DNA of 64,000 nucleotides from Bacteroidia bacterium (GTDB lineage Bacteria > Bacteroidota > Bacteroidia > Flavobacteriales > Flavobacteriaceae), in assembly GCA_030431055.1 (NCBI GenBank), contig JAUIJA010000003.1, forward strand, positions 62,001 to 126,000, given 5' to 3'. The position numbers and the translations under genes are program-made. Positions 1,400 through 32,069 of this stretch are shown here, in pieces (position 1 is the stretch's first letter; each line of letters starts with the position of its first letter). The notes under the pieces were generated by a model, which was not told the origin of the DNA, ran no database searches, and worked only from the letters and a program-made list of their open reading frames with translations.

Positions 1400-1975
1400 A
1401 TGTTATTTTTGAGGAAAATTTATCGAATGAAAAAGTTTCTATATAAATTCATTTTTTTTAAGCTATTAGGTTGGAAAATAACCGGTGATATTCCAGCAAG
1501 TGTTAAAAAATGCGTTATGGTTGTTGTTCCGCATACAAGTTGGTACGATTTTTTTCTTGGAATTTTCACAAGAGGAATAATGGGACTAGAAATGAATTTT
1601 GTTGGCAAAAAAGAACTTTTTACATTTCCTTTTGGATATTATTTTAAATGGGTTGGTGGCGCACCTTTAAACAGAAGTAAAAACGAGAATAAAGTTGATG
1701 CAATTGCTAAAATATTTGCAGAAAAAGACGTTTTTCGATTAGCAATCGCTCCAGAAGGAACAAGAAAAAAAGTAAAAGAATGGAAAACAGGATTTTACTA
1801 TATTGCTTTAAAAGCAAATGTTCCTATAATTCCTGTAGGTTTTGATTACGAAAACAAAGAAGTTAAGTTATTTGAAGCTTTTACACCAACAGGCGATAAA
1901 GAAGCTGATTTTGAATATTTACAGAGTTTATTCAGAGGAATAAAAGGTAAAATTCCTGAAAACAGCTTTGAATAA
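1400..1975 (+). CDS. 1-acyl-sn-glycerol-3-phosphate acyltransferase (PlsC-like); start may be 1430
   Basis: VVVPHTSWYDFF (HX4D-like) and APEGTRKK motifs. Confidence 0.85.
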   Translation: MLFLRKIYRMKKFLYKFIFFKLLGWKITGDIPASVKKCVMVVVPHTSWYDFFLGIFTRGIMGLEMNFVGKKELFTFPFGYYFKWVGGAPLNRSKNENKVDAIAKIFAEKDVFRLAIAPEGTRKKVKEWKTGFYYIALKANVPIIPVGFDYENKEVKLFEAFTPTGDKEADFEYLQSLFRGIKGKIPENSFE

Positions 1976-1981
1976 CGCTAG

Positions 1982-2416
1982 TTATTCAGGTTGATAACTC
2001 TTAAAAGTTCCGTTTTTATAAAAAATCACAATTTTATCAATTGATGATTGTTCAACTTTAGCTGTAGTTTCCAAATTTTCTTGTTTAACTAGATTTTCTA
2101 CAACTTCATTTTTATCACTAATTTGCTTTTCTTCAGAAAGATCTTCTTTATTGCTATTTTGAATTGGAGTAGAAGTGAAGTTTTCTTCGTTTTTAGGAAA
2201 TTCCCCTTTTCCTTGTAATAACCAATACAAATCTACTTCTTTAAAAACATCTGTAACTTTTAATACAAACTCTAAACTTGGCTTATTTCTACCAGAGAGT
2301 AGGTGAGATAAACTCGAGCGTTGTACGCCAATTTTATCAGCAAAAGAAGAAGCCGTTAGACTGTAATAATCTAATATCGTTTGTAGTTTAGATGTAAATT
2401 CTTCGATGTTTAACAT
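1982..2416 (-). CDS. XRE-family helix-turn-helix transcriptional regulator
   Basis: N-terminal HTH: TASSFADKIGVQRSSLSHLLSGRNKPSLEFVLKV. Confidence 0.85.
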   Translation of the reverse strand: MLNIEEFTSKLQTILDYYSLTASSFADKIGVQRSSLSHLLSGRNKPSLEFVLKVTDVFKEVDLYWLLQGKGEFPKNEENFTSTPIQNSNKEDLSEEKQISDKNEVVENLVKQENLETTAKVEQSSIDKIVIFYKNGTFKSYQPE

Positions 2417-2417
2417 T

Positions 2418-2703
2418 GTAACAAATGTGATTTCAAATGGTGTTACAAATGTAATTAGAATCTAAAAACAAAACAAGTTTACAATTGTAAAACTCAATTT
2501 ATTTATTAAACTATAACTTTAAATGCTAGTTATAAATAACTGATATATAGTATTTTAAATTATTAAACAATATTTGTTTAATTGTGTGAACTTTTAATTC
2601 TATTAGTTAATTCATTAGATGTAAATTATGTTTACAAGTGTAATTTATTTCGAATATCTTTTTGTTTACATTTGTAAAAATTAAGTTGTTTACATTTGTA
2701 ACA
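2418..2703. promoter_or_regulatory. cluster of operator-like inverted repeats TTTACAnnTGTAA
   Basis: TTACAAATGTAA 2443-2454, TTTACAATTGTAAA 2478-2491, TTTACAAGTGTAA 2631-2643, GTTTACATTTGTAAAA 2664-2679, GTTTACATTTGTAACA 2688-2703, and a weaker TGTAACAAATGTGA at about 2418. Confidence 0.7.
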
Positions 2704-2714
2704 AATCCAACGTA

Positions 2715-3869
2715 ATGAATTTTTTAGATTTAGCAACTCATTATTTATATAATCCAATTAAAGGACGTTATCAAACAAACGATTCAATTCAAGTTTTTTT
2801 AAAAACGCTTTCACATGAATTTATTCAAAAGGAAATAGGAACATCTTTTTTAAAGAAACCGATAACAAGTATTCAGTTTGGTTCAGGTAAAATAAAAGTT
2901 TTAATGTGGTCGCAAATGCACGGAAACGAATCGACTACAACTAAAGGCTTAATCGATTTTTTAAACTATTTGAATTCTGAAGAAAATGCTAAAGAAATCA
3001 AGGATAACTTTACCTTATTATGTGTTCCTATCTTAAATCCGGATGGAGCTGAGTTATACACGAGAGAAAATGCAGTCAAAGTAGATTTAAATCGGGATGC
3101 TAAAAATATAACGCAACCTGAGAGTAAAGTTTTAAGAGCGCTTTATTTGAATTTTCAGCCTGATGTTTGCTTTAACCTACATGATCAACGTACAATTTTT
3201 GCTGCTGGCGATTCTAAACTTCCAGCAACAATGTCTTTTTTAGCACCAGCTTACAATAAGAAAAGGGAGTTTAATGAAGTTCGTTTAAAAACAGTTGCGA
3301 TTATTAACGCTATTAATGCTGAGCTTCAAAAAATTATACCAAATCAAGTTGGACGATATGATGATGCGTTCAACGAAAACTGTATAGGAGATTATTTAAT
3401 GACTCAAAATACGCCAACAATCTTATTTGAAGCCGGACATTACAAAGATGATTATCAGCGTGATGAAGTACGAAAATTCGTGTTTGTTTCCATTTTATCT
3501 GCACTAACAAAAATTGCTAGTGACTTTAATGATTTTGATAATGAATTAGAGGATTATTTGAAAATTCCTCAAAACAAAGTTAGTTTTCAGGATTTTCTTT
3601 ACAAAAACATTAAAATTAACGATGACGGAAACGAAAAAATAATTAATTTTGCCGCTCATTTTAAAGAAGTTCTAAAAAACGCTAAAATAGAGTTTGAAGC
3701 AAGAATTTCAGAAATTGAATGTGTTGAGAGTAAATTAGGTCATTTTGAATTCGACGGAATGAAGTTTGAATTTGATTCGGAATTTGGAAAAAAACCAATA
3801 ATTGACAAAAAAGCTGATTTTTCTTTAAATAAAATGTTAAAATTCCGCAATGGTTTGCAAATAAATTAA
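2715..3869 (+). CDS. M14 family zinc carboxypeptidase
   Basis: MWSQMHGNESTTT (HxxE), NPDGAELYTRENAVKVDLNRDA, FNLHDQR, LFEAGHYKDD. Confidence 0.85.
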   Translation: MNFLDLATHYLYNPIKGRYQTNDSIQVFLKTLSHEFIQKEIGTSFLKKPITSIQFGSGKIKVLMWSQMHGNESTTTKGLIDFLNYLNSEENAKEIKDNFTLLCVPILNPDGAELYTRENAVKVDLNRDAKNITQPESKVLRALYLNFQPDVCFNLHDQRTIFAAGDSKLPATMSFLAPAYNKKREFNEVRLKTVAIINAINAELQKIIPNQVGRYDDAFNENCIGDYLMTQNTPTILFEAGHYKDDYQRDEVRKFVFVSILSALTKIASDFNDFDNELEDYLKIPQNKVSFQDFLYKNIKINDDGNEKIINFAAHFKEVLKNAKIEFEARISEIECVESKLGHFEFDGMKFEFDSEFGKKPIIDKKADFSLNKMLKFRNGLQIN

Positions 3870-3914
3870 TATTTTTGCCCAGTAATTATAAACACAATTT
3901 TTTAAGCACTTTAT

Positions 3915-4394
3915 ATGAGTAAGTTTCGTTTAGATGAAGTTGATCATCAAATTTTGGACATGTTAATCGATAATACACGTGTTCCTTTTACAGATATTGC
4001 AAAAAAACTTTTAATTTCAGCTGGAACAGTTCATGTTCGTGTTAAGAAAATGGAAGATGCGGGAATTATCCAAGGTTCGTCATTAACATTAGATTACGAA
4101 AAGTTAGGATATTCATTTATTGCATATGTAGGAGTTTTTCTTCATAATACTTCTCAAACTAAATTTGTTTTAGAGCGCATTAGCGAAATTCCATATGTAA
4201 CAGTTGCACACGTAACTACAGGAAAGTTTAATGTATTCTGTAAAATTAGAGCTAGAGATACAAAACATGCAAAAGAAGTTATCTTTATGATTGATGACAT
4301 CGAAGGAGTTTACAGAACTGAAACGATGATTTCTCTTGAAGAAAGCATTAATGATAAGAGACGATTAATGCACACAATTTTTAAAGAAATGTAA
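3915..4394 (+). CDS. Lrp/AsnC family transcriptional regulator
   Basis: N-terminal HTH (VDHQILDMLIDNTRVPFTDIAKKL) plus RAM-like domain. Confidence 0.9.
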   Translation: MSKFRLDEVDHQILDMLIDNTRVPFTDIAKKLLISAGTVHVRVKKMEDAGIIQGSSLTLDYEKLGYSFIAYVGVFLHNTSQTKFVLERISEIPYVTVAHVTTGKFNVFCKIRARDTKHAKEVIFMIDDIEGVYRTETMISLEESINDKRRLMHTIFKEM

Positions 4395-4399
4395 TTTTT

Positions 4400-4424
4400 A
4401 ATCCCGATTTATTCGGGATTTTTT
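4400..4424 (+). terminator. rho-independent terminator
   Basis: AATCCCGATTTATTCGGGATTTTTT. Confidence 0.8.
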
Positions 4425-4437
4425 AATCCTTGTATTC

Positions 4438-4947
4438 ATGCATTTTGAAGCTAACGAATTTGGCGCTTATTACAAACCGTATATTGAAAAAGCTATTCAT
4501 TATAATTCAATACTTGAAGGTTTAACCAAAAACAGTAAGGAAGTAATTGCTTTTTTTGAAAATTTACCTTCTGAGAAATTAGAATTTCAATATGCAGTAG
4601 GAAAATGGACACCAAAAGACATTTTATTGCATTTAATAGATGTTGAAAGAGTTTTTACATATCGCGGATTGTGCATTGCTAGAAATGATAAAACAGAGTT
4701 TCCAGGATTTGAAGAAAATGATTACGTAAACGAAGCAAATGCAAACACAAGAGAACTGAAAGATTTAATTGAAGAATTTAAAACAGTTAGAAGTTCTACA
4801 GTTTCTTTATACAATTCGTTTAATAACGAACAGTTAAAAAGAGTAGGAGTTGCTTCTTCTGCTTCGGTTTCTGTTAGAGCGCTAGCCTATATGACAATTG
4901 GGCATTATATACACCACATACAAGTAATAAAAGAACGATATTTATAA
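4438..4947 (+). CDS. DinB family protein
   Basis: KWTPKDILLHLIDVERVFTYR...HYIHHIQVIKERYL. Confidence 0.85.
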   Translation: MHFEANEFGAYYKPYIEKAIHYNSILEGLTKNSKEVIAFFENLPSEKLEFQYAVGKWTPKDILLHLIDVERVFTYRGLCIARNDKTEFPGFEENDYVNEANANTRELKDLIEEFKTVRSSTVSLYNSFNNEQLKRVGVASSASVSVRALAYMTIGHYIHHIQVIKERYL

Positions 4948-4978
4948 AAAAAAGGAAAGCATTTGCTTTCCTTTTTTA
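4948..4978. terminator. bidirectional terminator
   Basis: AAAAAAAGGAAAGCATTTGCTTTCCTTTTTT between convergent genes. Confidence 0.8.
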
Positions 4979-4979
4979 T

Positions 4980-5276
4980 TTAATCTTCGTCAGATTCGTC
5001 TGCTACTTCTAAATCTTTTAAGTCTAAATCGTCGTTTCCGTTATCATCATCCAAATCATCTTCGTCGAAGTTTTCAATTCTATCTGCAAGTTTTGTACTA
5101 ACTTTTACCAAGTAAATAGTGTCTTCTGTTCGTACTTCAACAGCTTCAACTGTTTCATTTTTAGCATTTTTGAAGCGAATGATATCTGAATCTTCATATC
5201 CTTCAGGAAACCTATCTACTAGTAGCGTTAAGATTTCGTTTGTTAATTTTGCATAATCAACAATTACTCTTTTCAT
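4980..5276 (-). CDS. conserved hypothetical protein with acidic C-terminus
   Basis: 98-aa ORF ending in a D/E-rich tail. Confidence 0.7.
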   Translation of the reverse strand: MKRVIVDYAKLTNEILTLLVDRFPEGYEDSDIIRFKNAKNETVEAVEVRTEDTIYLVKVSTKLADRIENFDEDDLDDDNGNDDLDLKDLEVADESDED

Positions 5277-5362
5277 TGGGTTACTTTTTGTATTGTTTTT
5301 TTTTCAAATGTAATACCGAAAATGAAATAATCAAATACTTTATTGTTTTTTTTCGTTAAAAA

Positions 5363-6337
5363 TTACCAACCTAAAATATAAGCAAAAATCAGTGGTGCAA
5401 CTATTGTCGCATCTGATTCTACAATGAATTTTGGCGTGTTAATATCTAATTTCCCCCAAGTTATTTTTTCATTTGGAACTGCTCCAGAATAAGAACCATA
5501 ACTTGTTGTTGAATCTGAAATTTGACAGAAATATGCCCAAAATGGAACATCATGCATTTCCATATCTTGATATAACATTGGTACAACACAAATAGGGAAG
5601 TCACCAGCAATTCCTCCACCAATTTGGAAGAATCCAATTCCTTTTCCTGCACAATTATCTCTGTACCAATCTGCAAGCCACATCATATATTCAACACCAC
5701 TTTTCATAGTTGTAGCTTTGAATTCTCCTTTGATACAGTATGAAGCAAAAATGTTACCCATTGTACTATCTTCCCAACCAGGAACTACAATTGGAATGTT
5801 TTTTTCTGCAGCTGCAACCATCCAAGAATCTTTTGGATCAATTTCATAATACTGTTCTAAAACTCCAGAGTTAATCATTTGATACATAAATTCATGTGGA
5901 AAATATCTTTCGCCAGCTTTATCAGCTTTGTTCCAAATGTCATGTAAATGCGATTGTAGTCTTCTAAAAGCTTCTTCTTCAGGAATACAAGTGTCAGTTA
6001 CACGATTGTAATGGTTTTCTAATAAATCCCATTCCTCTTGTGGCGATAAATCTCTATAATTTGGAACTCTTTTATATGAATTATGCGCAACCAAGTTCAT
6101 AATATCTTCTTCAAGATTTGCTCCTGTACAAGAAATAATATGAATTTTATCTTGACGAATCATTTCTGCTAATGATTTACCTAGTTCAGCTGTTGACATT
6201 GCTCCCGCTAGAGTAACCATCATTTTACCATTATCTAACAAGTGTTCTTCGTAGCCTTTAGCCGCATCAACTAAAGCAGCAGCATTAAAGTGCAAATAAT
6301 GTTTTTCTACAAATTGACTAATTGGACCTTTATTCAT
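5363..6337 (-). CDS. deoxyhypusine synthase family protein
   Basis: GIGFFQIGGGIAGDFPICVVPMLYQDM...YGSYSGAVPNEKITWGKL motifs. Confidence 0.88.
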   Translation of the reverse strand: MNKGPISQFVEKHYLHFNAAALVDAAKGYEEHLLDNGKMMVTLAGAMSTAELGKSLAEMIRQDKIHIISCTGANLEEDIMNLVAHNSYKRVPNYRDLSPQEEWDLLENHYNRVTDTCIPEEEAFRRLQSHLHDIWNKADKAGERYFPHEFMYQMINSGVLEQYYEIDPKDSWMVAAAEKNIPIVVPGWEDSTMGNIFASYCIKGEFKATTMKSGVEYMMWLADWYRDNCAGKGIGFFQIGGGIAGDFPICVVPMLYQDMEMHDVPFWAYFCQISDSTTSYGSYSGAVPNEKITWGKLDINTPKFIVESDATIVAPLIFAYILGW

Positions 6338-6345
6338 TTTTAATT

Positions 6346-7746
6346 TTATTTTTTGTTATAACCTAAAATATCTAAAACTTCATCGGCATTTTGTTGCTGA
6401 GAAAATACTTCTGTAGCTAAAATTCCGTTTTTATCTCTATCGATTAAAATATGCTTTGGTTGTGGAATTAAACAGTGATGTAAACCTCCAAAACCTCCTA
6501 TAGTTTCTTGATAAGCTCCTGTGTTGAAAAATCCTATATATAATGGTTTTTCACGATTATATTTAGGTAAATAAACAGCATTCATGTGTTGTTCTGAATT
6601 GTAATAATCATCAGAATCACATGTTAATCCGCCTAATAAAACTCTTTCGTAAGTATCATTCCAACGGTTTACCGCCAACATAACAAAACGCTTGTTGATA
6701 GCCCAAGTATCAGGTAAAGTTGTAATGAAAGAAGAATCAATCATATTCCAGTTTTCTCTATCGTTTTGTTGTTTTTGATACAATACTTCGTAAATAGCTC
6801 CGCCAGATTCTCCAACAGTAAACGAACCAAATTCTGTAAAGATATTTGGAACTTCAACTTCAGCTTCATCACATGCAATCTTGATTTGATTTAAGATTTC
6901 TTCAATCATATATTGATAATCGTAATCAAATGCTAAAGAATTTTTAATTGGAAATCCGCCGCCAATATTTAAACTATCAAGTGTAGGACATTCTTTTTTC
7001 AAAGCGATGTACACTTTCATACATTTTAAAAGTTCGTTCCAATAATATGCTGTATCGCGAATTCCTGTATTAATAAAGAAGTGAAGCATTTTAAGTTCAA
7101 CTTTCTTATTCTCTTGAATTTGCTTACGATAAAACGGAACAATGTTTTTATAACCAATTCCTAAACGAGAAGTGTAGAACTCAAATTTTGGTTCTTCTTC
7201 CGCAGCAATACGAATTCCGATTTTGATTTTACTTTTGATTTTCTCTTGTAATAAATCTAATTCTTCGTAATTATCGATTACTGGAATTGTATTTTTATGT
7301 CCGTTATTGATTAAACGTGCAATGTTATCAATATAAGCATCACGCTTAAAACCGTTGCAAACTACAAATGTATTTTTATTGATTTTTCCTTCTTCAATAA
7401 GGCTTTCAACAATATTAATATCAAAAGCAGATGATGTTTCAATATGAATGTTATTTTTTAAAGCTTCATCTAAAACGAATTTAAAATGAGAACTTTTTGT
7501 ACAGTAACAATAATAGTATTTACCATCATAATCTAATTTTTCCATTGCGTTTCTAAACCAAATTTTAGATTGGCGAATGTTCTTAGAAATTTTTGGTAAA
7601 TACGTGAATTTTAATGGCGTTCCATATTCTTCGACTAATTTCATTAAATCGATTCCGTGAAACTGTAATGAATCTTTATTTAAAGTAAATTCTTCTTGTG
7701 GGAAGTAAAAAGTTTGATTAATTAAATCGGAATAACTTGTTTTCAT
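6346..7746 (-). CDS. speA: biosynthetic arginine decarboxylase (PLP-dependent, fold III)
   Basis: YYCYCTKSSHF, LNIGGGFPIKNSLAF, GGLTCDSDDYY motifs. Confidence 0.85.
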   Translation of the reverse strand: MKTSYSDLINQTFYFPQEEFTLNKDSLQFHGIDLMKLVEEYGTPLKFTYLPKISKNIRQSKIWFRNAMEKLDYDGKYYYCYCTKSSHFKFVLDEALKNNIHIETSSAFDINIVESLIEEGKINKNTFVVCNGFKRDAYIDNIARLINNGHKNTIPVIDNYEELDLLQEKIKSKIKIGIRIAAEEEPKFEFYTSRLGIGYKNIVPFYRKQIQENKKVELKMLHFFINTGIRDTAYYWNELLKCMKVYIALKKECPTLDSLNIGGGFPIKNSLAFDYDYQYMIEEILNQIKIACDEAEVEVPNIFTEFGSFTVGESGGAIYEVLYQKQQNDRENWNMIDSSFITTLPDTWAINKRFVMLAVNRWNDTYERVLLGGLTCDSDDYYNSEQHMNAVYLPKYNREKPLYIGFFNTGAYQETIGGFGGLHHCLIPQPKHILIDRDKNGILATEVFSQQQNADEVLDILGYNKK

Positions 7747-7814
7747 TATTCTGTTAAGGTTAAAATTTATTAAATAAGCTAAATATTACTCAAACATATA
7801 TTTCAAACTGCATC

Positions 7815-7985
7815 TCAAACTCTAATATTAGCAAAAATTATTGGTAATTTCTTATAATTCGCTTTTAAAAGTAAAAATAAATCGATAAATGTATGTTCTT
7901 GATATTGTTTTAACAAACAATACAATTCTTTCCAGCTTTTAATTGGATAAAATTTAGGTTGTAGCAAAATACATTTAACTTTCAT
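7815..7985 (-). CDS. putative small protein (56 aa)
   Basis: Below the ORF-track cutoff; MKVKCILLQPKFYPIKSWKELYCLLKQYQEHTFIDLFLLLKANYKKLPIIFANIRV* read from the minus strand. Confidence 0.35.
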   Translation of the reverse strand: MKVKCILLQPKFYPIKSWKELYCLLKQYQEHTFIDLFLLLKANYKKLPIIFANIRV

Positions 7986-8034
7986 TAGAGCAAATGTATA
8001 AAATAAAAATATAGAAAATTAAATTTATTTTTAA

Positions 8035-9099
8035 TTATTTGTAATCTTCAAAAGCATTGTAAATCAAATCGTTATCACAATGTTGGTTGATTTTTATTTT
8101 TCCAATTCCATTTAAAAGTGCAAATTGAACTTTCCCAAATTCATTTTTCTTATCAAAAATTAAAAGTTCGATAATAGCATCAATATCTTCTTTAGAAAAC
8201 TCAACTTTATCAAAATATTCACCTATAATATATTTAATTTCGAAATATTCATCATTTGTAAGTAAACCTTTTTCTTTTGAAATAAAACTTTCTAAAATCA
8301 TTCCGATAGCAACAGCGTGACCATGAAGTAGTGTAGGTTTGTTTTCATTTTCTAAACAATAACTCTCAATTGCATGACCAAGCGTATGGCCGAAATTTAA
8401 TGCTTTGCGGATACCATTTTCGGTTAAATCTTCCGAAACTATCGTGTTTTTAATTTGAATAGATTGATGAATTAATCCACCTAAATCTTCTGTAGTTAAA
8501 GAAGTTAAGTTTTTAAATTTATTCCAATATTCTTTGTCGTATATCAATCCGTGTTTTAGCATTTCAGCTAAACCAGAACGCATTTCATCAACAGGAAGCG
8601 TTTCTAAAAAACTAGTATCGACTAAAACAGCTTTTGGTTCGCGAATAATACCAATTTGGTTTTTCAAATTCCCTAAATCAACGCCATTTTTTCCACCAAT
8701 TGCCGCATCAACCATTCCTAAAAGAGTAGTAGGAATATTAATAAATTCGATTCCTCTTTTAAACGTACAAGCAATAAATCCGCCTAAATCAGTAACAACT
8801 CCGCCACCTAAATTTAGCACTAAACTTTTTCTATCGGCACCTAAATCAATTAGCGCTGACCAAATATCAACGCAAGTTTCAATATTTTTAAACTGCTCTC
8901 CAGCTTCTAATTCAATGATTTCGATTTCAACTTCGGTAACTAAGTTTGGCAAAAAACTAGGCAAACAATGCTGTGAAGTATTTTCATCAACCAGAATAAA
9001 AACTTTTGAAAAACTCTTATCTACTAATAAGTTAGCTAAATAATTATAGCAATTTTCGTTAAAAAATATAGTGTGATTAACGGCTTGTATGGTTTCCAT
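8035..9099 (-). CDS. aroB: 3-dehydroquinate synthase
   Basis: NLGGGVVTDLGGFIACTFKRGI, NIPTTLLGMVDAAIGGKNGVDL, ALNFGHTLGHAIE. Confidence 0.95.
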   Translation of the reverse strand: METIQAVNHTIFFNENCYNYLANLLVDKSFSKVFILVDENTSQHCLPSFLPNLVTEVEIEIIELEAGEQFKNIETCVDIWSALIDLGADRKSLVLNLGGGVVTDLGGFIACTFKRGIEFINIPTTLLGMVDAAIGGKNGVDLGNLKNQIGIIREPKAVLVDTSFLETLPVDEMRSGLAEMLKHGLIYDKEYWNKFKNLTSLTTEDLGGLIHQSIQIKNTIVSEDLTENGIRKALNFGHTLGHAIESYCLENENKPTLLHGHAVAIGMILESFISKEKGLLTNDEYFEIKYIIGEYFDKVEFSKEDIDAIIELLIFDKKNEFGKVQFALLNGIGKIKINQHCDNDLIYNAFEDYK

Positions 9100-23708: not shown

Positions 23709-24071
23709 TTAAAAGTTTAGAAATGCTTCGTTATAAGCTTTAATATCTAATACGTTGTTTTTTTTCGTCAAATCAGTAAGTAAAGACAAATAATATTCAA
23801 AACTTTCTAAATCGTTATTTTCAGAGAATTTTGCAGTTGATTCTTCAGAATCTTCATCTAAATCTTCAGGAATACTAACTAAAAACGCTTGATTTGAAGC
23901 AAGATGTTCGTAAGCTAAACGCAAAGATTTTGTTACTGTAGGAATTTTTTCTTCAAGAGAATATTCACGAATTTGCTTTAAGCTTTCAATAATGTCATCG
24001 ACGTCAAATTTGTCTTGTAATAAATTCTTTTGAATTTTCTCTATTAGCTTAATCGCGTATTTATTTTCCAT
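23709..24071 (-). CDS. conserved hypothetical protein
   Basis: 120-aa ORF. Confidence 0.65.
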   Translation of the reverse strand: MENKYAIKLIEKIQKNLLQDKFDVDDIIESLKQIREYSLEEKIPTVTKSLRLAYEHLASNQAFLVSIPEDLDEDSEESTAKFSENNDLESFEYYLSLLTDLTKKNNVLDIKAYNEAFLNF

Positions 24072-24151: not shown

Positions 24152-24179
24152 TTGATTTATAATTTACAGTATGTAATTT
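24152..24179 (+). repeat. left dif-like Xer site
   Basis: TTGATTTATAA-TTTACA-GTATGTAATTT; shares TTATAATTTACA and TATGTAA with the right site. Confidence 0.7.
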
Positions 24180-24216
24180 AAAAACGACATTTTTGGGATT
24201 ATTAAAACCCTAAAAA

Positions 24217-24525
24217 ATGTTAAAACACGCTAAAAAAGAAAATCCAACTTTGGAGCAGTTGGTAGCTTTTAATTCTTCAAGTTATTACACTCATTATTCA
24301 ACCGCAAATTTTCAAAGAAAGTACCGCAAACATTTTAAATTCTCTTTACTTTCTGATTGTTTGTTTTCTATTACTTCAAAAGCTACTAAACATAGTTTAA
24401 AAATTGAGGTTCAAGAAAATAATTATTTCAGATTGTCATCTACTAAAAAAGGGGTTGTTTGTGATGTTTGCGCTTTATCTACTCGTGAACTCGTTGAAAA
24501 AATCATTTATCACGAATTAATTTAA
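24217..24525 (+). CDS. hypothetical protein of the element
   Basis: 102-aa ORF, ATG start, first gene inside left site. Confidence 0.6.
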   Translation: MLKHAKKENPTLEQLVAFNSSSYYTHYSTANFQRKYRKHFKFSLLSDCLFSITSKATKHSLKIEVQENNYFRLSSTKKGVVCDVCALSTRELVEKIIYHELI

Positions 24526-24536
24526 TACGATTTTAT

Positions 24537-24950
24537 ATGAAAATGTTAATCATTAGAACCGCACAAAACGAGGTTCAAACAATCGGGCACGCTTTAATTT
24601 TAGATAATTCGGGACAAAGACTTGAAACGTTTACAACATTAGAATTACCATTTATAAATAATTTCCGCAAAATTTCGTGTATTCCTCCAGGAGAGTACAA
24701 GGTTAAAAAACGCTTTTCTAAGAAGTTTGGCAACCATTTTCACGTGCTTGACGTTAAGGGGCGTGATTTTATTTTGATACACAAAGGGAATTATTACACA
24801 CAAACAAAGGGATGTATTTTGTTAGGTCGTGAGCATAAATACATAAACAACGATAACGTTTTAGACGTGTCGCAAAGTGCTTATTCTATGGCTTTATTAA
24901 ATCGTATTGCGCCAATTTATTTTACTCTTAAAATTGTTGAATTATGGTAA
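24537..24950 (+). CDS. DUF5675-like protein
   Basis: TLELPFINNFRKISCIPPGEYKVKKRFSKKFGNHFHVLDVKGRDFILIHKGNYYTQTKGCILLG. Confidence 0.75.
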   Translation: MKMLIIRTAQNEVQTIGHALILDNSGQRLETFTTLELPFINNFRKISCIPPGEYKVKKRFSKKFGNHFHVLDVKGRDFILIHKGNYYTQTKGCILLGREHKYINNDNVLDVSQSAYSMALLNRIAPIYFTLKIVELW

Positions 24951-25135
24951 ATAGTTATATGAGTAAAGAAGAGAAACGCTATTGCGTAGAATGGTTGAAA
25001 CTTGAAATTGCTTCAATAGAATATGAGTTGGAATGTTTTAGGTATGGCGGTTTAGTGTCAAAACCCATTTCAGTTTTAGAGGAAGAGCTCGAGCAGTATA
25101 AAAGTTTATTAAAACACGCTTTAAAACGCAAGTAA
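24944..25135 (+). CDS. hypothetical small protein
   Basis: 63-aa ORF overlapping the preceding stop codon (ATGGTAA). Confidence 0.5.
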   Translation: MVNSYMSKEEKRYCVEWLKLEIASIEYELECFRYGGLVSKPISVLEEELEQYKSLLKHALKRK

Positions 25136-25185
25136 CTAAGTATTGGTTTATTTAAGTTCGGACAATTCAAAATCTTTAAAAAGCA

Positions 25186-26241
25186 ATGGAAAATCTTTAT
25201 TATTCAGTACCCGCTTTTAGTTTAACGCCGTCAAAGTTGGTATTATATTCAAAAAATTTCAAACGTTCTTTAAATTCTAATACGCCTTATGATCCATTTG
25301 TAAAAAATGGTATAAGTCGCAGAATCTCAAATTTGCAAAAATCTGAAAATGGTAAGATTTCAAGGTTTCACAATTTTCAAATTTCAATACAAGCAAGAAA
25401 AAACCTATTTGATAAAATTAACTGGTTGTATTTTATGTCAAAATCAAGGCACAAAAAAACCGTATCGGGCAAAGATATTTACAACTTTCGAATTAATTTT
25501 ATAACATTGACTTTACCAAGTAAGCAAGAGCATAACACGGCTACGATAACAAATGAGTGTTTTAATCAATTTTTAACCGAATTGCGTGAAAAATACAATT
25601 TAGAAAACTACGTTTGGCGTTTAGAGTTTCAAAAAAACGGGAATGTGCATTATCATTTAGTTACTGATGTTTATTTGGATTATTACGTTTTATTAAAAAA
25701 TTGGAATAGAATTTTGTCTAAATTGGGATATGTTCAAAAGTATGCGGAAAAACATAGTTTAATGTCTTTAAGTGATTACGTTAAGGAATATTCTAATAAT
25801 AATAAAATAGATTTTGAGGTTTTAAAAAAGCGTTATATTAAGGGAAAGGCGTTAAAGTGGAAAGTGCCAAATACTGTTGATGTTAAGAGCGTTTTAGGTC
25901 AGAAAAAAATAGCTTTTTACATTTCAAAATATTTCGGTAAAGGCTCTGAAAAAGGCCCTAAAAAAAACGTTCTCGATAATGAGGAAAATAGTAAAGGGCT
26001 TCGTTTGTGGTTTTGTTCCCGCTCACTTTCAAAACTTAAAAAAATTGTTGATTTTGTTCCCGCTTTTGATATTGATTTGATTTCGTTAATATCGGGGTGT
26101 AAGGATGTTTTTAAAATAATTCACGATTATTGTACTGTTTTTTATTATTCGGCTTCTTTACTTACTGATAAAGCGAAATCGATAGTAAATAAATTACTGC
26201 GTCAATATGCTATTTCATTAGATTATAAACCCGCAATTTGA
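25186..26241 (+). CDS. rolling-circle replication initiator (HUH endonuclease)
   Basis: FITLTLP (motif I), VHYHLV HUH motif (H155/H157), YISKYFGK YxxxY motif (Y245/Y249). Confidence 0.85.
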   Translation: MENLYYSVPAFSLTPSKLVLYSKNFKRSLNSNTPYDPFVKNGISRRISNLQKSENGKISRFHNFQISIQARKNLFDKINWLYFMSKSRHKKTVSGKDIYNFRINFITLTLPSKQEHNTATITNECFNQFLTELREKYNLENYVWRLEFQKNGNVHYHLVTDVYLDYYVLLKNWNRILSKLGYVQKYAEKHSLMSLSDYVKEYSNNNKIDFEVLKKRYIKGKALKWKVPNTVDVKSVLGQKKIAFYISKYFGKGSEKGPKKNVLDNEENSKGLRLWFCSRSLSKLKKIVDFVPAFDIDLISLISGCKDVFKIIHDYCTVFYYSASLLTDKAKSIVNKLLRQYAISLDYKPAI

Positions 26242-26246
26242 TTTAT

Positions 26247-26525
26247 ATGGCTCGAGCATATAATTATAAATTTCAGAAAATAAAGCCCGTCATATTGTTT
26301 ATTTGGGAGTATCGTTGTTATGTTTGCGGTCATCAAAACACACGAAATCACGTACACCATTTTAACGAAAATCCTCACGATAACGGAGCGCATAATTTAA
26401 TGGTGCTTTGTGATATTCATCATAAAATGATACATAAAAATATTATTATCGATGAGATACAATACACGGATGAAGTCGCTCGTCAGTTGTGGGCGCTTGA
26501 CGAACTCTGGAAAAAATTAGGTTGA
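26247..26525 (+). CDS. HNH endonuclease-like protein
   Basis: YRCYVCGHQNTRNHVHHFNENPHDNGAHNLMVLCDIHHKMIH; ORF track opens at 26238. Confidence 0.85.
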   Translation: MARAYNYKFQKIKPVILFIWEYRCYVCGHQNTRNHVHHFNENPHDNGAHNLMVLCDIHHKMIHKNIIIDEIQYTDEVARQLWALDELWKKLG

Positions 26526-26627
26526 GTTTTATTAAGTAAAGTAAAGTTTAATAATATAGAGTAATACTTTTAGTATTATGATCTATATTATTTTATTGTT
26601 TTATAGTTTATTATTTATTTACATTTC

Positions 26628-26960
26628 GTTCCCTTTGGTTAAAGATTGTTTTAATTATTTATTATTTATTGATTGTATTATTATTGTTTATTGTATTGTA
26701 TGTATTGTATATGTAGTGTATGTAGAGTATATGTAGAGTATATGTAGAATAAGTATAGTATTATAAGTAGTTATTGAATTGCTTCTCATTTTGTTCCCTT
26801 TGGTTAAAGATTGTTTTAGTTATTTGATTGTATTATAGTAGTTATTTAGTAGTTATTGAGTAGTTATATAGTAGTAATAGAGTAGAAGTATTGAATATGT
26901 AGAATAAGTATAGTTATTGTAGTTTTGTTCTCATATCGTTTCCCTTCGGTTAAAAATTTT
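26628..26960 (+). repeat. three direct repeats GTTCCCTTTGGTTAAAGATTGTTTTA
   Basis: Identical 26-mers at 26628-26653 and 26793-26818; diverged third copy at 26938-26960. Confidence 0.85.
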
Positions 26961-27013
26961 GATAAAAAAGAAGAATAAAATTGAATAATGAATAAATAAT
27001 GTAGATTTGTAGA

Positions 27014-27112
27014 ATGAATATTGATAATGAATTTGTAAAATTTGTCTTAACTGTAATCTTTTGGTTATTTGGTTTGTATTTATATGGCAAAGCTTTTAAA
27101 AATAAAAAATAG
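27014..27112 (+). CDS. putative small single-pass membrane protein (32 aa)
   Basis: MNIDNEFVKFVLTVIFWLFGLYLYGKAFKNKK*; too short for the ORF track. Confidence 0.45.
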   Translation: MNIDNEFVKFVLTVIFWLFGLYLYGKAFKNKK

Positions 27113-27659
27113 TTTTACTCGCTTCGCTCGTTCGCTTCGCTCACTCGCTTGACTCGTCGTGCTTCCAGAAAAAAACAAAGTTTTTTTAATTAATACGTGC
27201 TTTCAATCGGTCTCTCTCCGTTCGTTCATTTAGTTTCATTCCTCACTTTCAGTCGTTTTGAAAAAACTCCGTTTTCGTTCGTCTTTTCACTCATTACCTT
27301 ACTGCGTTCGTCGTGCTTCCTGCTTGCTTACTCATTTTATTCGCTCCGCAAGTCAGCCCTTATTTTAAGGGTGCGCTTACTGTTCCCTCAATTCGTTTTG
27401 GTTTAATAGTTCGGCTCGTTTCCCTCGCCTTTTTAAATCGGGAAAACTCACGTTTCACGCTCACACGCCCCGCCGTGTCGTTTCACTTTTACGGCTCTCG
27501 CCGTGTGGTTTCGGTTACATTCCACCCGCGCACCGCCCGTGCGTTCCTCGTGCTTTGCACTGCGTTACTTCGGGGTGCTTAATCAAGCAACCAATTATTT
27601 ATATTTAAAGGCATAAAAAATAAAAAAATTACAGCAAGTTTAAGCTATGTTCAACATCG

Positions 27660-27699
27660 CCGACAAGGGTATACAAAGCGCATAAATGCGCCCTTGCGG
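27660..27699. other. strong hairpin in the element's non-coding region
   Basis: CCG-a-CAAGGG-tatacaaa-GCGCAT-aa-ATGCG-CCCTTG-CGG. Confidence 0.65.
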
Positions 27700-28198
27700 A
27701 CTTGTTTCACGTCGCTTGGCTTTTTGGCTTTCTTTTTTTATTGTTTTTTTCTTTGCCTTTAAATATGCGTTTATTCACAGTCAATCCAGCCGTTATCCGT
27801 CATCAAATCCTTACGTCAAATAAATTTCAGCTTCAATCGCTTGGCTCTTCTTTGCGTTTAGAGTTAGAAAAATTACCCGTTACGCCTTGCAATGCAAATT
27901 ATCGTTATATGCTTTTGCGTTTACTTCGTTTTGCTCGTCAAGTTTACATTGCTCGTTATCTGCGGTAAATTGTAAACCGATTTTTTAAAATCTCGCACCG
28001 ATTTTGCCGATTAAGAATATTTTAGTCGATTTTTTTAATATTATCGGTTATTTGTCGGCTTAGTGTTTCACTATACTTGCTTATTTGCGTTTGATTTTAA
28101 CGCCAAAATTAAGCCGTATTTCGATTTTTTTTATTTTTTGATACTTTGATATATTTTTTTTTATATCTTCGCTTAAAATTAATTTATTACGTTTTTTT

Positions 28199-28387
28199 AT
28201 GAAATCAAGTTTTTTAGCAACTACTTTAACGGGTTTAGTAGGTATTGGAACGAGCGGAGCGGTCGAGGTTGCTTCTAATATTGACCCAACACCTATACAA
28301 GAGGGGGCAACGTTGTTAACTCAGTTAGTTATTTTGGTGGTTACGATTATTAATTTGTTTAAAAGAAAAAAGACACAAACAACTTAA
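28199..28387 (+). CDS. small membrane protein (62 aa), coat-like or holin-like
   Basis: Hydrophobic N-terminus, TM segment LLTQLVILVVTIINLF and basic tail KRKK. Confidence 0.65.
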   Translation: MKSSFLATTLTGLVGIGTSGAVEVASNIDPTPIQEGATLLTQLVILVVTIINLFKRKKTQTT

Positions 28388-28399
28388 AATCAATCTATT

Positions 28400-29083
28400 A
28401 TGGCAAAAGTAAAATTTGGTATGATGATGACCGACGCAAGCGGTAAATTAGGCGGGCACGTTTTCGCAAAAAATCGTGGCGGGTCATACGTTCGTACAAA
28501 AGGTATTCCTTCAAATCCTCAAACGTCAGCACAGATGAATGTTCGAGGTATTTTCGCAAGTATTTCGAGTGCTTGGGCGTCGCTTACAGAAGCACAGAGA
28601 AACTCTTTCCGTGGTTTTGTTTCTGATTATGCTCGTACTGATATTTTCGGAGATTTAAGAAACCCGTCGGGGAAATCGTTGTATCAGCGTTTAAATCAAA
28701 ATTTAGCAATTTCGGGTCAAACGTTGTTAAATGAATGTGTTTCGCCCGTGGAGGTTCCATTTGCTAATTTATCAAGTGCGGACGGCGTTGTTTCAACTAC
28801 TCAATTTGATATTGAGACGGTTGGCGATACTACGGGGAGTAAATTGGTAATTTGGGCAACTCCGTCAATGTCTCAAGGTAAAAAATTCGTTAAAAACGAC
28901 TTACGTCAGTTGTCAGTTGTGAATGGTGGCTCGGCGGTTACAACTGATATTTGGGCGGATTATGTGGCTAAATTTGGTACTCCAGCGGTGGACGCTAATA
29001 TTTATATTGGTATTCGTGTTGTAAACGCTAATGGTCAAGCTTCGCCTTTAGAGGTTGTAAAGGCTACTATTGTAAACGCTTAA
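28400..29083 (+). CDS. DUF6266-like protein, candidate virion protein (copy 1, 227 aa)
   Basis: GMMMTDASGKLGGHVFAKNRGGSYVR...AWASLTEAQRNSF. Confidence 0.7.
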   Translation: MAKVKFGMMMTDASGKLGGHVFAKNRGGSYVRTKGIPSNPQTSAQMNVRGIFASISSAWASLTEAQRNSFRGFVSDYARTDIFGDLRNPSGKSLYQRLNQNLAISGQTLLNECVSPVEVPFANLSSADGVVSTTQFDIETVGDTTGSKLVIWATPSMSQGKKFVKNDLRQLSVVNGGSAVTTDIWADYVAKFGTPAVDANIYIGIRVVNANGQASPLEVVKATIVNA

Positions 29084-29110
29084 GTTTTAATTATTTTTTT
29101 GGTGTATATT

Positions 29111-29140
29111 AGGCGGGGGGTGGTTGCTCTCCGCTTTTTT
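29111..29140 (+). terminator. possible terminator between the two paralogous genes
   Basis: GGCGGggggtggttgctctCCGCTTTTTT. Confidence 0.45.
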
Positions 29141-29158
29141 ATTTTAAATTTTTATATT

Positions 29159-29842
29159 ATGGCAAGATTTTTATTAGGTTCAATCGTTACAGATATTCAG
29201 GGCTCTATTGGTGGTACTACTTTTAGGCGTACGCCTACGGGTCATATTGCTTACAATAAGCAAGCTCGACAGTTGCGCTCATCGAGTTCTGCTTATTCTC
29301 GAAAAATTCAATTAGGTAAAATTTTTCAAGCTTGGAGTAATTTGACTCAAAATGAGCGAAACGCTTGGGCAGAAAAAGCCGTGTTGTTTCCTTTTCCGGA
29401 TAAGTTCGGGAAATCAAAGTTTTTGACGGGGAGGCAGTTATTCATTAAGTTAAATTCGCAGTTAACAGTTAAAGGCAGTTCGGTTTTAGACCCGTCTTTG
29501 TTAGATTCTACTTTGAATTTTAGCGCAATTAATTCTATGAGTATTGATATAGGTGCTAATACTTGCGACATTGATTTTGACACGAATGTTTCAAGTGGTA
29601 CTATTGTTGTCTCGTTTTATAAACTACGCAAAGGCTCAAAGGTTAAGCCACACGCTCATTTTAGAGCTTCGGGGAATATTTCGGCGACGGGAACGAATAC
29701 TTATGATTTTTGGACGCAATTAAATCAGCGTTATCCTAATTTGAAACCTGGGGAAATTATAGGCGTGAATGCGTATTTGTTGAATGATAGCGGTTTTAAA
29801 TCTGCGGTTGCAAGTGCGTTAGCAGTAGTCGAAATGAATTAA
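29159..29842 (+). CDS. DUF6266-like protein, candidate virion protein (copy 2, 227 aa from ATG at 29159)
   Basis: GSIVTDIQGSIGGTTFRRTPTGHIAYN...AWSNLTQNERNAW; same length and layout as copy 1. Confidence 0.7.
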   Translation: MARFLLGSIVTDIQGSIGGTTFRRTPTGHIAYNKQARQLRSSSSAYSRKIQLGKIFQAWSNLTQNERNAWAEKAVLFPFPDKFGKSKFLTGRQLFIKLNSQLTVKGSSVLDPSLLDSTLNFSAINSMSIDIGANTCDIDFDTNVSSGTIVVSFYKLRKGSKVKPHAHFRASGNISATGTNTYDFWTQLNQRYPNLKPGEIIGVNAYLLNDSGFKSAVASALAVVEMN

Positions 29843-29986
29843 TATTATAATTTTTTCTTATCGATAAATAAATTTTTTCTATTTGGATTATTCAATTTTA
29901 TTTTACAATATTTGCCTATCGCTCTGCGGGGACGCAACGATAAACCAAAGCAAGTAAAAAATATTTTACTCACGTTCTTAAGAAAT

Positions 29987-30020
29987 AAGTGTTGTCTATT
30001 TTAGTCAGCACTTTTTTTTT
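29987..30020 (+). terminator. rho-independent terminator at the right end of the element
   Basis: AAGTGTTG-tctattttagt-CAGCACTTTTTTTTT. Confidence 0.75.
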
Positions 30021-30078
30021 TATATGCTTGGGGAAAAAATCCAATTAAGTTCAATTTTGTTTCAAAAGTGTTGTTTTT

Positions 30079-30106
30079 GTGAATTATAATTTACATTATG
30101 TAAAAT
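30079..30106 (+). repeat. right dif-like Xer site
   Basis: GTGAATTATAA-TTTACA-TTATGTAAAAT; right arm differs from E. coli dif TTATGTTAAAT at one position. Confidence 0.75.
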
Positions 30107-30152: not shown

Positions 30153-32069
30153 ATGAAAAATTCAATTGCATATAGCATTGCTGATTTTCTAAAATACTAT
30201 CACCCTTTTAGTGAACTTAAATTTGAAAGTTTACTTCTAGTGGCTCAAAGTTGTTCTGTAATATATTTAGAAAAAAACGAAACTTTATTCAAAATTAACG
30301 ACGATATTCACGATTCATTTTATGTTGTGGCTTCTGGTGCTGTTGGACTTTCAGTAACTTCAGATACTGATGATGTCTTAATTGATAAATGTGACGAAGG
30401 TGATATTTTAGGTTTACGTCCGTTTTTTGCGCAAGACAATTATTTAGTAACCGCAAAAACTCGTGAAGATTCTATATTATATGCTATTCCTATTGCTGTA
30501 TTTAGACCTATTGCTTTAGAAAATAAAGATGTATTAGATTTTTTACTAAGAAGTTTTGCTTCAAACACTCGTAATCCGTTTGATGATAAAAATAAAGGAA
30601 AATTAATTTCTGAAAATGTAATTTTTGATGAGCAATCAGTAGAAATTCAGTACTATCAACCTATTTCCTATTCAAAAAGCCCTGTATTGGCTTCAGCAAA
30701 TGACACTGTTAAAGATGTTGCAAAAACCATGACTTTTAAAAGTATTGCAAGCATTATAATTCATGAAAATAAACTTCCAATAGGAATTGTAACCGATAAA
30801 GATTTACGTTCTAAAATTGCAACTGGTTTTTACGCTGTAGATACTAAAGTTGATAAAATTATGTCGTCTCCAGTACTAACAGTTCCTGATAATTTATCTA
30901 TTTCTCAAGCCCAAATGTTGATGTTGAAACACAACGTAAGTCATTTGTGTGTTACTGAAGACGGTACCAATAAATCGGAAATAATTGGCGTTATTTCAGA
31001 ACACGATATTGTTGTAGCTCAAGCTAATAATCCTGGAGTTCTTTTAAAACAAATAGGAAAAGCTGAAAAAACACATGAGATTAAACACTTACGCGAAAAA
31101 CTAACAGTCTTAATTCAGAATTCTATCGATAAAAACATTCCTATAAATCATATTTGCTCTATCGTAGGCGAAATTCACAATGCAATTATTAAACGATGTA
31201 TTGATCTTTCAATTGAAAAATTAGGCTTCGCTCCTGCTCAATTTGCATGGATAAATATTGGGAGTCAAGGAAGAAAAGAACAATTATTACTAACCGATCA
31301 GGATAACGCTATAATTTTTGAAGATGTTGAAGACAATCGATACGATGAAGTAAAAGAATACTTTGTGGCGTTAGGTAAAAATGTAAATAAAATGCTTGAT
31401 GAAATAGGTTTTTCATTTTCACCTGATGGCTTAGTGGCTGGTAATGAAAATTGGTGTAAATCATTAACAGATTGGCAATTACAATACAAAAGTTGGATTC
31501 AAAACAGTAAAGAAAAAGAAGCATTAAATGCTACAATATTTTTCGATTATGATTTTGTTTATGGAAATGAAACTCTTGTAGATTCTTTAACTGAAACAAT
31601 AAGTAAATACACGCAGGAAAATGAATTATTTTTTGCTTACTTAGGTGCTGATACTTTGAAAAATCCGCCGCCACTTGGGTTTTTCAGACAATTTTTAGTA
31701 GAAAATGATGGCGAACATAAAGACACTTTCGATATTAAATCGAGAGCAATTGATTCTTTAGTCGATGCTGCTAGAGTACTTGCTCTACAGAATAAAATTA
31801 ACAACAATTCTAATACCGCATACCGATTTATTAAATTAGCTGAAATTGAACCTAAAAACTCAACTATTTATGAAGCTTGTAGCGAAGCTTTTTTAGAATT
31901 ATTAAAATTTAGAACAATTGAAGGTTTACTTAATAATAATGACGGTAAATATTTAAAATTAAATGAATTATCAAAACTAGATAAGGTTAAGCTGAAGAAT
32001 AGCTTTCAACCTATTTCTGAAATTCATGAAATTCTTAAAAATCGTTTCCAACTAACCTACTTTTCATAG
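30153..32069 (+). CDS. DUF294 nucleotidyltransferase-like protein with cyclic-nucleotide-binding and CBS domains
   Basis: cNMP-like N-terminus, paired CBS (VTDKDLRSKIA, VISEHDIVVA), INIGSQGRKEQLLLTDQDNAI. Confidence 0.9.
   Translation: MKNSIAYSIADFLKYYHPFSELKFESLLLVAQSCSVIYLEKNETLFKINDDIHDSFYVVASGAVGLSVTSDTDDVLIDKCDEGDILGLRPFFAQDNYLVTAKTREDSILYAIPIAVFRPIALENKDVLDFLLRSFASNTRNPFDDKNKGKLISENVIFDEQSVEIQYYQPISYSKSPVLASANDTVKDVAKTMTFKSIASIIIHENKLPIGIVTDKDLRSKIATGFYAVDTKVDKIMSSPVLTVPDNLSISQAQMLMLKHNVSHLCVTEDGTNKSEIIGVISEHDIVVAQANNPGVLLKQIGKAEKTHEIKHLREKLTVLIQNSIDKNIPINHICSIVGEIHNAIIKRCIDLSIEKLGFAPAQFAWINIGSQGRKEQLLLTDQDNAIIFEDVEDNRYDEVKEYFVALGKNVNKMLDEIGFSFSPDGLVAGNENWCKSLTDWQLQYKSWIQNSKEKEALNATIFFDYDFVYGNETLVDSLTETISKYTQENELFFAYLGADTLKNPPPLGFFRQFLVENDGEHKDTFDIKSRAIDSLVDAARVLALQNKINNNSNTAYRFIKLAEIEPKNSTIYEACSEAFLELLKFRTIEGLLNNNDGKYLKLNELSKLDKVKLKNSFQPISEIHEILKNRFQLTYFS

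Follow-up and report, generated by a model that had tools for sequence, protein, structure and literature searches.

A dif-integrated element of Flavobacterium probably represents an undescribed lineage of single-stranded DNA phages and may be a satellite

Which kind of mobile element occupies the 5,927 bp between two dif-like sites of a Flavobacterium genome, and how did it enter the chromosome? The locus lies within 64,000 nucleotides of contig JAUIJA010000003.1, a stretch that we call, in its full length, the window, and the original prediction was that of an integrated, ssDNA phage-like element. Our analysis points in the same direction: with a probability of roughly 60%, we regard it as a temperate, rolling-circle ssDNA-phage-like element that resides in the native dif site, was integrated by a TLC-type Xer reaction with assistance of a gp01-like protein, and is packaged by means of the proteins p1 and p2. 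The mode of insertion is not new, since this genus is already known to harbour ssDNA prophages at dif: phiCjT23, an isolated temperate ssDNA phage, has prophages flanked by dif in Flavobacterium (PMC9719478). What is new here are a GTATG half-site signature, a remote gp01 homologue beside the att site, and a Rep and candidate particle genes that are unrelated to those of phiCjT23.

Table 1. Features of the element and of its flanks, in positions of the window.
Feature	Position	Strand	Remarks
Left flanking host gene	23709..24071	-	Left flank collinear with relatives beside dif
Left att site	24152..24179	+	TTGATTTATAA-TTTACA-GTATGTAATTT; chromosomal XerC arm TTGATTTATAA, phage-type XerD arm GTATGTAATTT
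gp01-like protein, 102 aa, gene adjoining att	24217..24525	+	Remote profile homology to phiCjT23 gp01
DUF5675 protein	24537..24950	+	PF18925, E=2.7e-25
63-aa protein	24944..25135	+	Relatives searched, none found
Rolling-circle Rep	25186..26241	+	HUH (HYH) and YxxKYxxK two-tyrosine motif; PF23343, E=6.3e-10; phrog_3419
HNH endonuclease-like protein, 92 aa	26247..26525	+	phrog_8048, E=4.8e-9, and other HNH endonuclease families
Long non-coding region, 1.67 kb, between HNH and membrane protein	26526..28198	+	AT-rich repeats 26599-26914; GC-rich block ~27100-27960
62-aa membrane protein	28199..28387	+	Basic C-terminus (KRKK)
p1, 227 aa, candidate virion protein	28400..29083	+	Relatives in L002, MW202486 and L138
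p2, 227 aa, p1 paralogue	29159..29842	+	Predicted C-terminal fibronectin-III-like domain (low confidence)
Right att site	30079..30106	+	GTGAATTATAA-TTTACA-TTATGTAAAAT; phage XerC arm GTGAATTATAA, chromosomal XerD arm TTATGTAAAAT
Right flanking host gene (cNMP/CBS/DUF294)	30153..32069	+	Orthologue just downstream of dif in relatives

As predicted, the element is bounded by two sites of 11-6-11 organisation on the same strand (Table 1), and these are the only good matches to the dif consensus in the window. This consensus, TTGAACTATAA-TTTATA-TTATGTAAAAT for the genus, was derived from 50 dif sites of relatives, which were collected with a pattern that includes the XerD arm and allows up to three mismatches, some genomes being represented twice. 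The left site agrees with it at 22 of 28 positions and the right one, a near-consensus dif, at 25 of 28, while the third-best site in the window scores 19; a dif-like match was present in 141 of 150 genomes of the genus. The arm TTATGTAAAAT of the right site, which had been likened to proteobacterial dif, is instead the exact Flavobacterium XerD arm and identical in all 50 chromosomal sites (found, as stated, with a pattern that contains it). The outer arms fit the host (TTGA..TATAA on the left, TTATGTAAAAT on the right) and the inner arms belong to the element. From the latter we deduced an attP, GTGAATTATAA-TTTACA-GTATGTAATTT, the one dif-like site that the circular form would carry, with a dif-like XerC arm and centre and an altered XerD arm that keeps 8 of the 11 bases of the host arm.

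A comparison with an empty site, proposed as a check, bore out the insertion. The nearest relative, L036 (G134:C252), has a single dif, and the two flanks meet inside it: the alignment of the left flank (72%) extends to base 906, that of the right flank (75%) begins at base 883. Therefore, the 5,927 bp are a real insertion into the native dif of Flavobacterium. In most close relatives, dif immediately precedes the orthologue of the right flanking gene, and the orthologue of the left flanking gene adjoins dif in L130. Nothing that had been named as contrary evidence, such as the region being a stable part of related chromosomes or the empty site lacking a dif, was encountered. Moreover, no integrase or recombinase was detected among the scanned proteins of the element, and the host genome encodes an XerD above the NCBIfam cut-off together with an XerC-like recombinase, whose best model is XerC at a score below the equivalog cut-off. 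Integration by Xer at dif without an integrase of its own is thus backed by both the empty site and the host enzymes. Host XerC and XerD would recombine attP with dif, after which the right-hand site would continue to serve as dif.

The architecture of the sites is that of TLC phage and of the IMEX GGI, whose attP has a dif-like XerC arm and centre and a divergent XerD arm and is first cut and exchanged by XerD (PMC4246890, PMC5357621); these elements likewise do without an integrase of their own. Exchange of the TLC type is, in addition, independent of FtsK and involves an activation factor. They belong to another phylum, however, and the divergence of the XerD arm is milder in our element than in TLC phage. 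Given this att layout, a reversible, XerD-first integration would be expected by analogy. TLC phage also encodes an XerD-activating factor, XafT (PMC9765430), and the gp01-like protein may assist or regulate recombination in a similar way. The original prediction had set the element against filamentous phages that carry a Zot/pI ATPase. This contrast holds inasmuch as no PF05707 match was found in the element, but it is incomplete, since phiCjT23 (PMC9719478) and the temperate microviruses of Bacteroidetes (BMV), known to be integrated at dif-like sites (PMC3091885), also use dif. The BMV are small RCR elements between dif-like sites and lack an integrase as well, whereas they differ in having microvirus capsid genes, for which no Pfam or PHROG capsid match was obtained among the element proteins.

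The closest parallels at the level of the att site come from phiCjT23-like prophages. The attP of phiCjT23, which is split across the ends of its record, reads ATGAACTATAA-TTTATA-GTATGATTTGC on the complementary strand, and its XerD arm starts with GTATG as does that of our left att site. Among 18 other prophage att sites, many of which come from close relatives so that the independent cases are fewer, this arm starts with GTATG in 16, GTAAG in one and ATAAG in one, compared with TTATG in 50 of 50 chromosomal dif sites. Furthermore, the gene adjoining att in phiCjT23 encodes the 102-aa protein gp01, whose family is present in 22 of 300 genomes of the genus, our host included, and lies directly beside dif in the phiCjT23-type loci that we read. 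A gp01 profile iterated without the window matched the product of the gene at 24217 with 25.3 bits (E=1.4e-6; best of 2000 shuffles, 13.8 bits) and no other reading frame of the window, while a narrow profile of close phiCjT23 gp01 copies missed it (6.6 bits). The intermediates were first recruited by a profile containing the window protein, and three of four were also recovered without it. Linked through these intermediate sequences, the 24217 protein is a remote homologue of phiCjT23 gp01. The side of att on which gp01 is encoded varies, being that of the XerC arm in the phiCjT23 group and that of the XerD arm in our element and in L128/L131, L129 and L130; therefore, a simple site-binding role is weakened. 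L130 carries a different prophage at the same dif, beside the orthologue of the left flanking gene of the window.

Beyond the shared genus, dif insertion, rolling-circle-type Rep, size class, GTATG arm and gp01 gene beside att, the phiCjT23-like prophages differ from our element in an unrelated Rep sequence, in other accessory genes and in an att site that is inverted relative to the genes. Neither Rep, a Rep profile nor p1/p2 gave a significant match to phiCjT23 proteins, including gp03 (Rep) and gp05. The double jelly-roll capsid protein (gp05) and the spike of phiCjT23 were not found in the element by sequence, the structural models of p1 and p2 being of low confidence. Homology of the 63-aa protein to phiCjT23 gp02 found no support, its score of 6.4 bits lying within those of shuffles.

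The gene content agrees with the original prediction in that the HUH Rep, the DUF5675-like protein and the small membrane protein (62 aa) were confirmed and the HNH protein matches HNH endonuclease families. Residues H155, H157, Y245, K248, Y249 and K252 are invariant in the three Reps compared. In the DUF5675 protein, a sub-threshold Tlde1 match spans an H..(S/T)xGC-like motif, which suggests an L,D-transpeptidase-like cell-wall enzyme. Homologues of this protein also occur in L152/L153. Homology of p1 to the 251-aa proteins of L152/L153 was not supported (E ~0.04), and these are absent from the matches of a p1-only profile. The long non-coding region, in which no Rfam family was found, is a candidate origin or structural region; after excision, Rep would nick an origin, probably within this region, yielding ssDNA circles, in whose packaging the membrane protein, p1 and p2 could take part. 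The claim that the enclosed DNA differs in composition applies mainly to the right half (41.7% GC at 27100-27960 and 39.0% at 28199-29842), whereas the left part, with 30.6%, is close to the flanks (27.9 and 29.9%).

The two candidate virion proteins had been proposed to be paralogues, and this part of the claim is sound: a p1-only profile retrieves p2 with E=1e-19, where the best-scoring one among 2000 shuffles reached 6.7 bits, which marks them as true paralogues by sequence comparison. No match above noise was found for p1 in Pfam, PHROG or PDB. The AlphaFold models are poor (pLDDT 53 for p1 and 58 for p2), and FnIII matches of the low-confidence p2 model give a weak hint of an FnIII-like C-terminal domain. 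The virion role is unproven, and a copy of p1 with ~40% identity is encoded by a tailed phage, L138 (IMG/VR contig 3300020044_009829, a myophage). Therefore, p1 is found beyond ssDNA elements and is not necessarily the major capsid component.

Only in MW202486 and L002 were matches to both Rep and p1 found. MW202486 is a 4,577-bp circle represented by three records of identical length, and its source virome was 0.22-µm filtered and treated with chloroform and DNase (PMC8388828; we infer this link from where the sample was taken and from the fact that the paper reports five Inoviridae genomes). This preparation supports encapsidation of the relative MW202486 only. The contig L002 (JAENWI010000062.1; 222x according to the record title) measures 7,340 bp and, as its ends repeat each other over 141 bp, corresponds to a circle of 7,199 bp; it keeps the gene order Rep, non-coding region, small membrane protein, p1. 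Unlike our element, both relatives carry a DNA methyltransferase and no Flavobacterium-type dif was found in them; L002 has, in addition, Peptidase_M15-like and GIY-YIG genes that the window element lacks. A 513-aa protein of L002, though included in alignment A2, scored only 6.2 bits with the p1-only profile, so that its homology to p2 is not supported. The IMG/VR contigs L067-L071 have only a distant Rep in common with the element. Rep was carried by our host alone among 200 genomes of the genus, and p1/p2 by our host alone among 396 genomes of the phylum, so that activity is not judgeable from polymorphism; in plasmids, p1 was not found. With DNase-treated particles as the source of one relative and a 7.2-kb circular contig as the other, the idea of a separate, little-known lineage of ssDNA viruses, or of a satellite of such a lineage, is supported, and the element is probably an ssDNA phage whose lineage has not been described, or perhaps a satellite.

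The main rival to an autonomous phage is a helper-dependent satellite, a Rep-bearing and capsid-less element that would be packaged by a phiCjT23-like, filamentous or tailed helper, whose particles p1 and the membrane protein would redirect. We consider this improbable but worth serious attention. Besides the missing Zot/pI, no capsid, assembly or terminase gene was recognised among the element proteins in Pfam and PHROG, which leaves an autonomous viral life unproven, and the att site is of the type of TLC phage, itself a satellite that depends on other filamentous phages (PMC4246890). Moreover, L138, a dsDNA phage with head and sheath genes, carries p1 together with a homologue of the 62-aa membrane protein directly upstream of it (pairwise E=9e-8), located directly before the head protease; the GC-rich block of our element is 75% identical over 88 nt (E=1.7e-11) to a similar block preceding the same gene pair. 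A Rep of the element's type was not found on the profile-scanned half of L138. Against a satellite, no helper was found, the only Zot match elsewhere in the host genome being below the cut-off; the complete circles of MW202486 and L002 contain p1 but no recognised helper genes; and p1 has diverged from the tailed-phage copy to the ~40% identity given above.

A decayed or domesticated remnant that has lost excision is unlikely: it would fit the occurrence in one genome, where neither a second copy nor polymorphism was seen, but all listed reading frames are open and both att sites have good XerC arms and identical centres. Still less probable is an inovirus-like filamentous phage, with the 62-aa protein as coat and an export ATPase that is unrecognised or supplied by the host. 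Such a coat would match the signal-like N-terminus, single hydrophobic stretch and basic C-terminus of this protein, and the depositors of MW202486 labelled it Inoviridae. However, the pI ATPase, the only universal marker of inoviruses (PMC6813254), was not found, neither p1 nor p2 matches a protein family of inoviruses, and the small protein that takes the corresponding place in L002 looks unlike it. Finally, chance or unrelated dif-like repeats in stable host DNA, which an AT-rich genome might favour, can practically be dismissed in view of the genus consensus, of the empty site in L036 and of a first-order Markov simulation of 60 windows, in which a mean of 0.017 sites scored at least 22 and none at least 25.

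For a temperate, Xer-integrated ssDNA phage-like element as preferred here, the significance lies in what it shares with otherwise different prophages. Because the GTATG half-site and the adjacent gp01 gene are common to unrelated elements, gp01 becomes a concrete candidate, outside Vibrio, for a factor of Xer activation or directionality. We tentatively entertain, with the odds against it, that a transferable dif module of an altered XerD half-site and a gp01-type Xer activator circulates among unrelated Flavobacterium ssDNA phages, alongside an undescribed family with p1/p2 particles. Overall, our findings suggest that Xer hijacking in Bacteroidota may be modular, the half-site and small protein being combined with unrelated replication and particle genes, and they connect MW202486, an orphan circle from a virome, with a family in which the host genus of one member is known.

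In an IMG/VR myophage contig (3300020044_009829), a homologue of p1, the 227-aa candidate virion protein, lies together with a GC-rich non-coding block and a small membrane protein gene between the Dam and head protease genes of the phage. Two Flavobacterium islands, which are not located at dif, encode DUF5675, DUF6943, a 251-aa protein and small membrane proteins, and contain short segments similar to the GC-rich block of the window element.

The virome circle MW202486 carries a highly stable hairpin (z -8.6, matched by 0/200 shuffles) with two inverted dif-like sequences within its stem, a structure reminiscent either of the attP of CTX phage in its folded form or of an origin.

In genome G061, dif lies ~34 kb away from the gene that it adjoins in relatives, which suggests a big insertion or rearrangement at this site. 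A dif-flanked insert of 2.1 kb contains only a gp01-like gene and one for a 341-aa protein. Finally, an 11-kb element with a dif site on each side represents a further, bigger type of dif prophage, which carries a gp01 relative as well as lysozyme-like and M23-peptidase-like genes, a 650-aa candidate Rep and a candidate capsid (assigned by eye).

Coordinates of the compared features
Locus	Source	Position	Feature
L138	myophage	690-2479	p1 segment
L152	Flavobacterium	3890-8700	island
L153	Flavobacterium	1700-5200	island
L003	MW202486	4480-4577	hairpin
L085	G061	18364	dif ~34 kb from flanking gene
L040	G061		dif ~34 kb from flanking gene
L131	G658:C9	1908-4050	2.1-kb insert
L129	G078:C5	3582-14738	11-kb element
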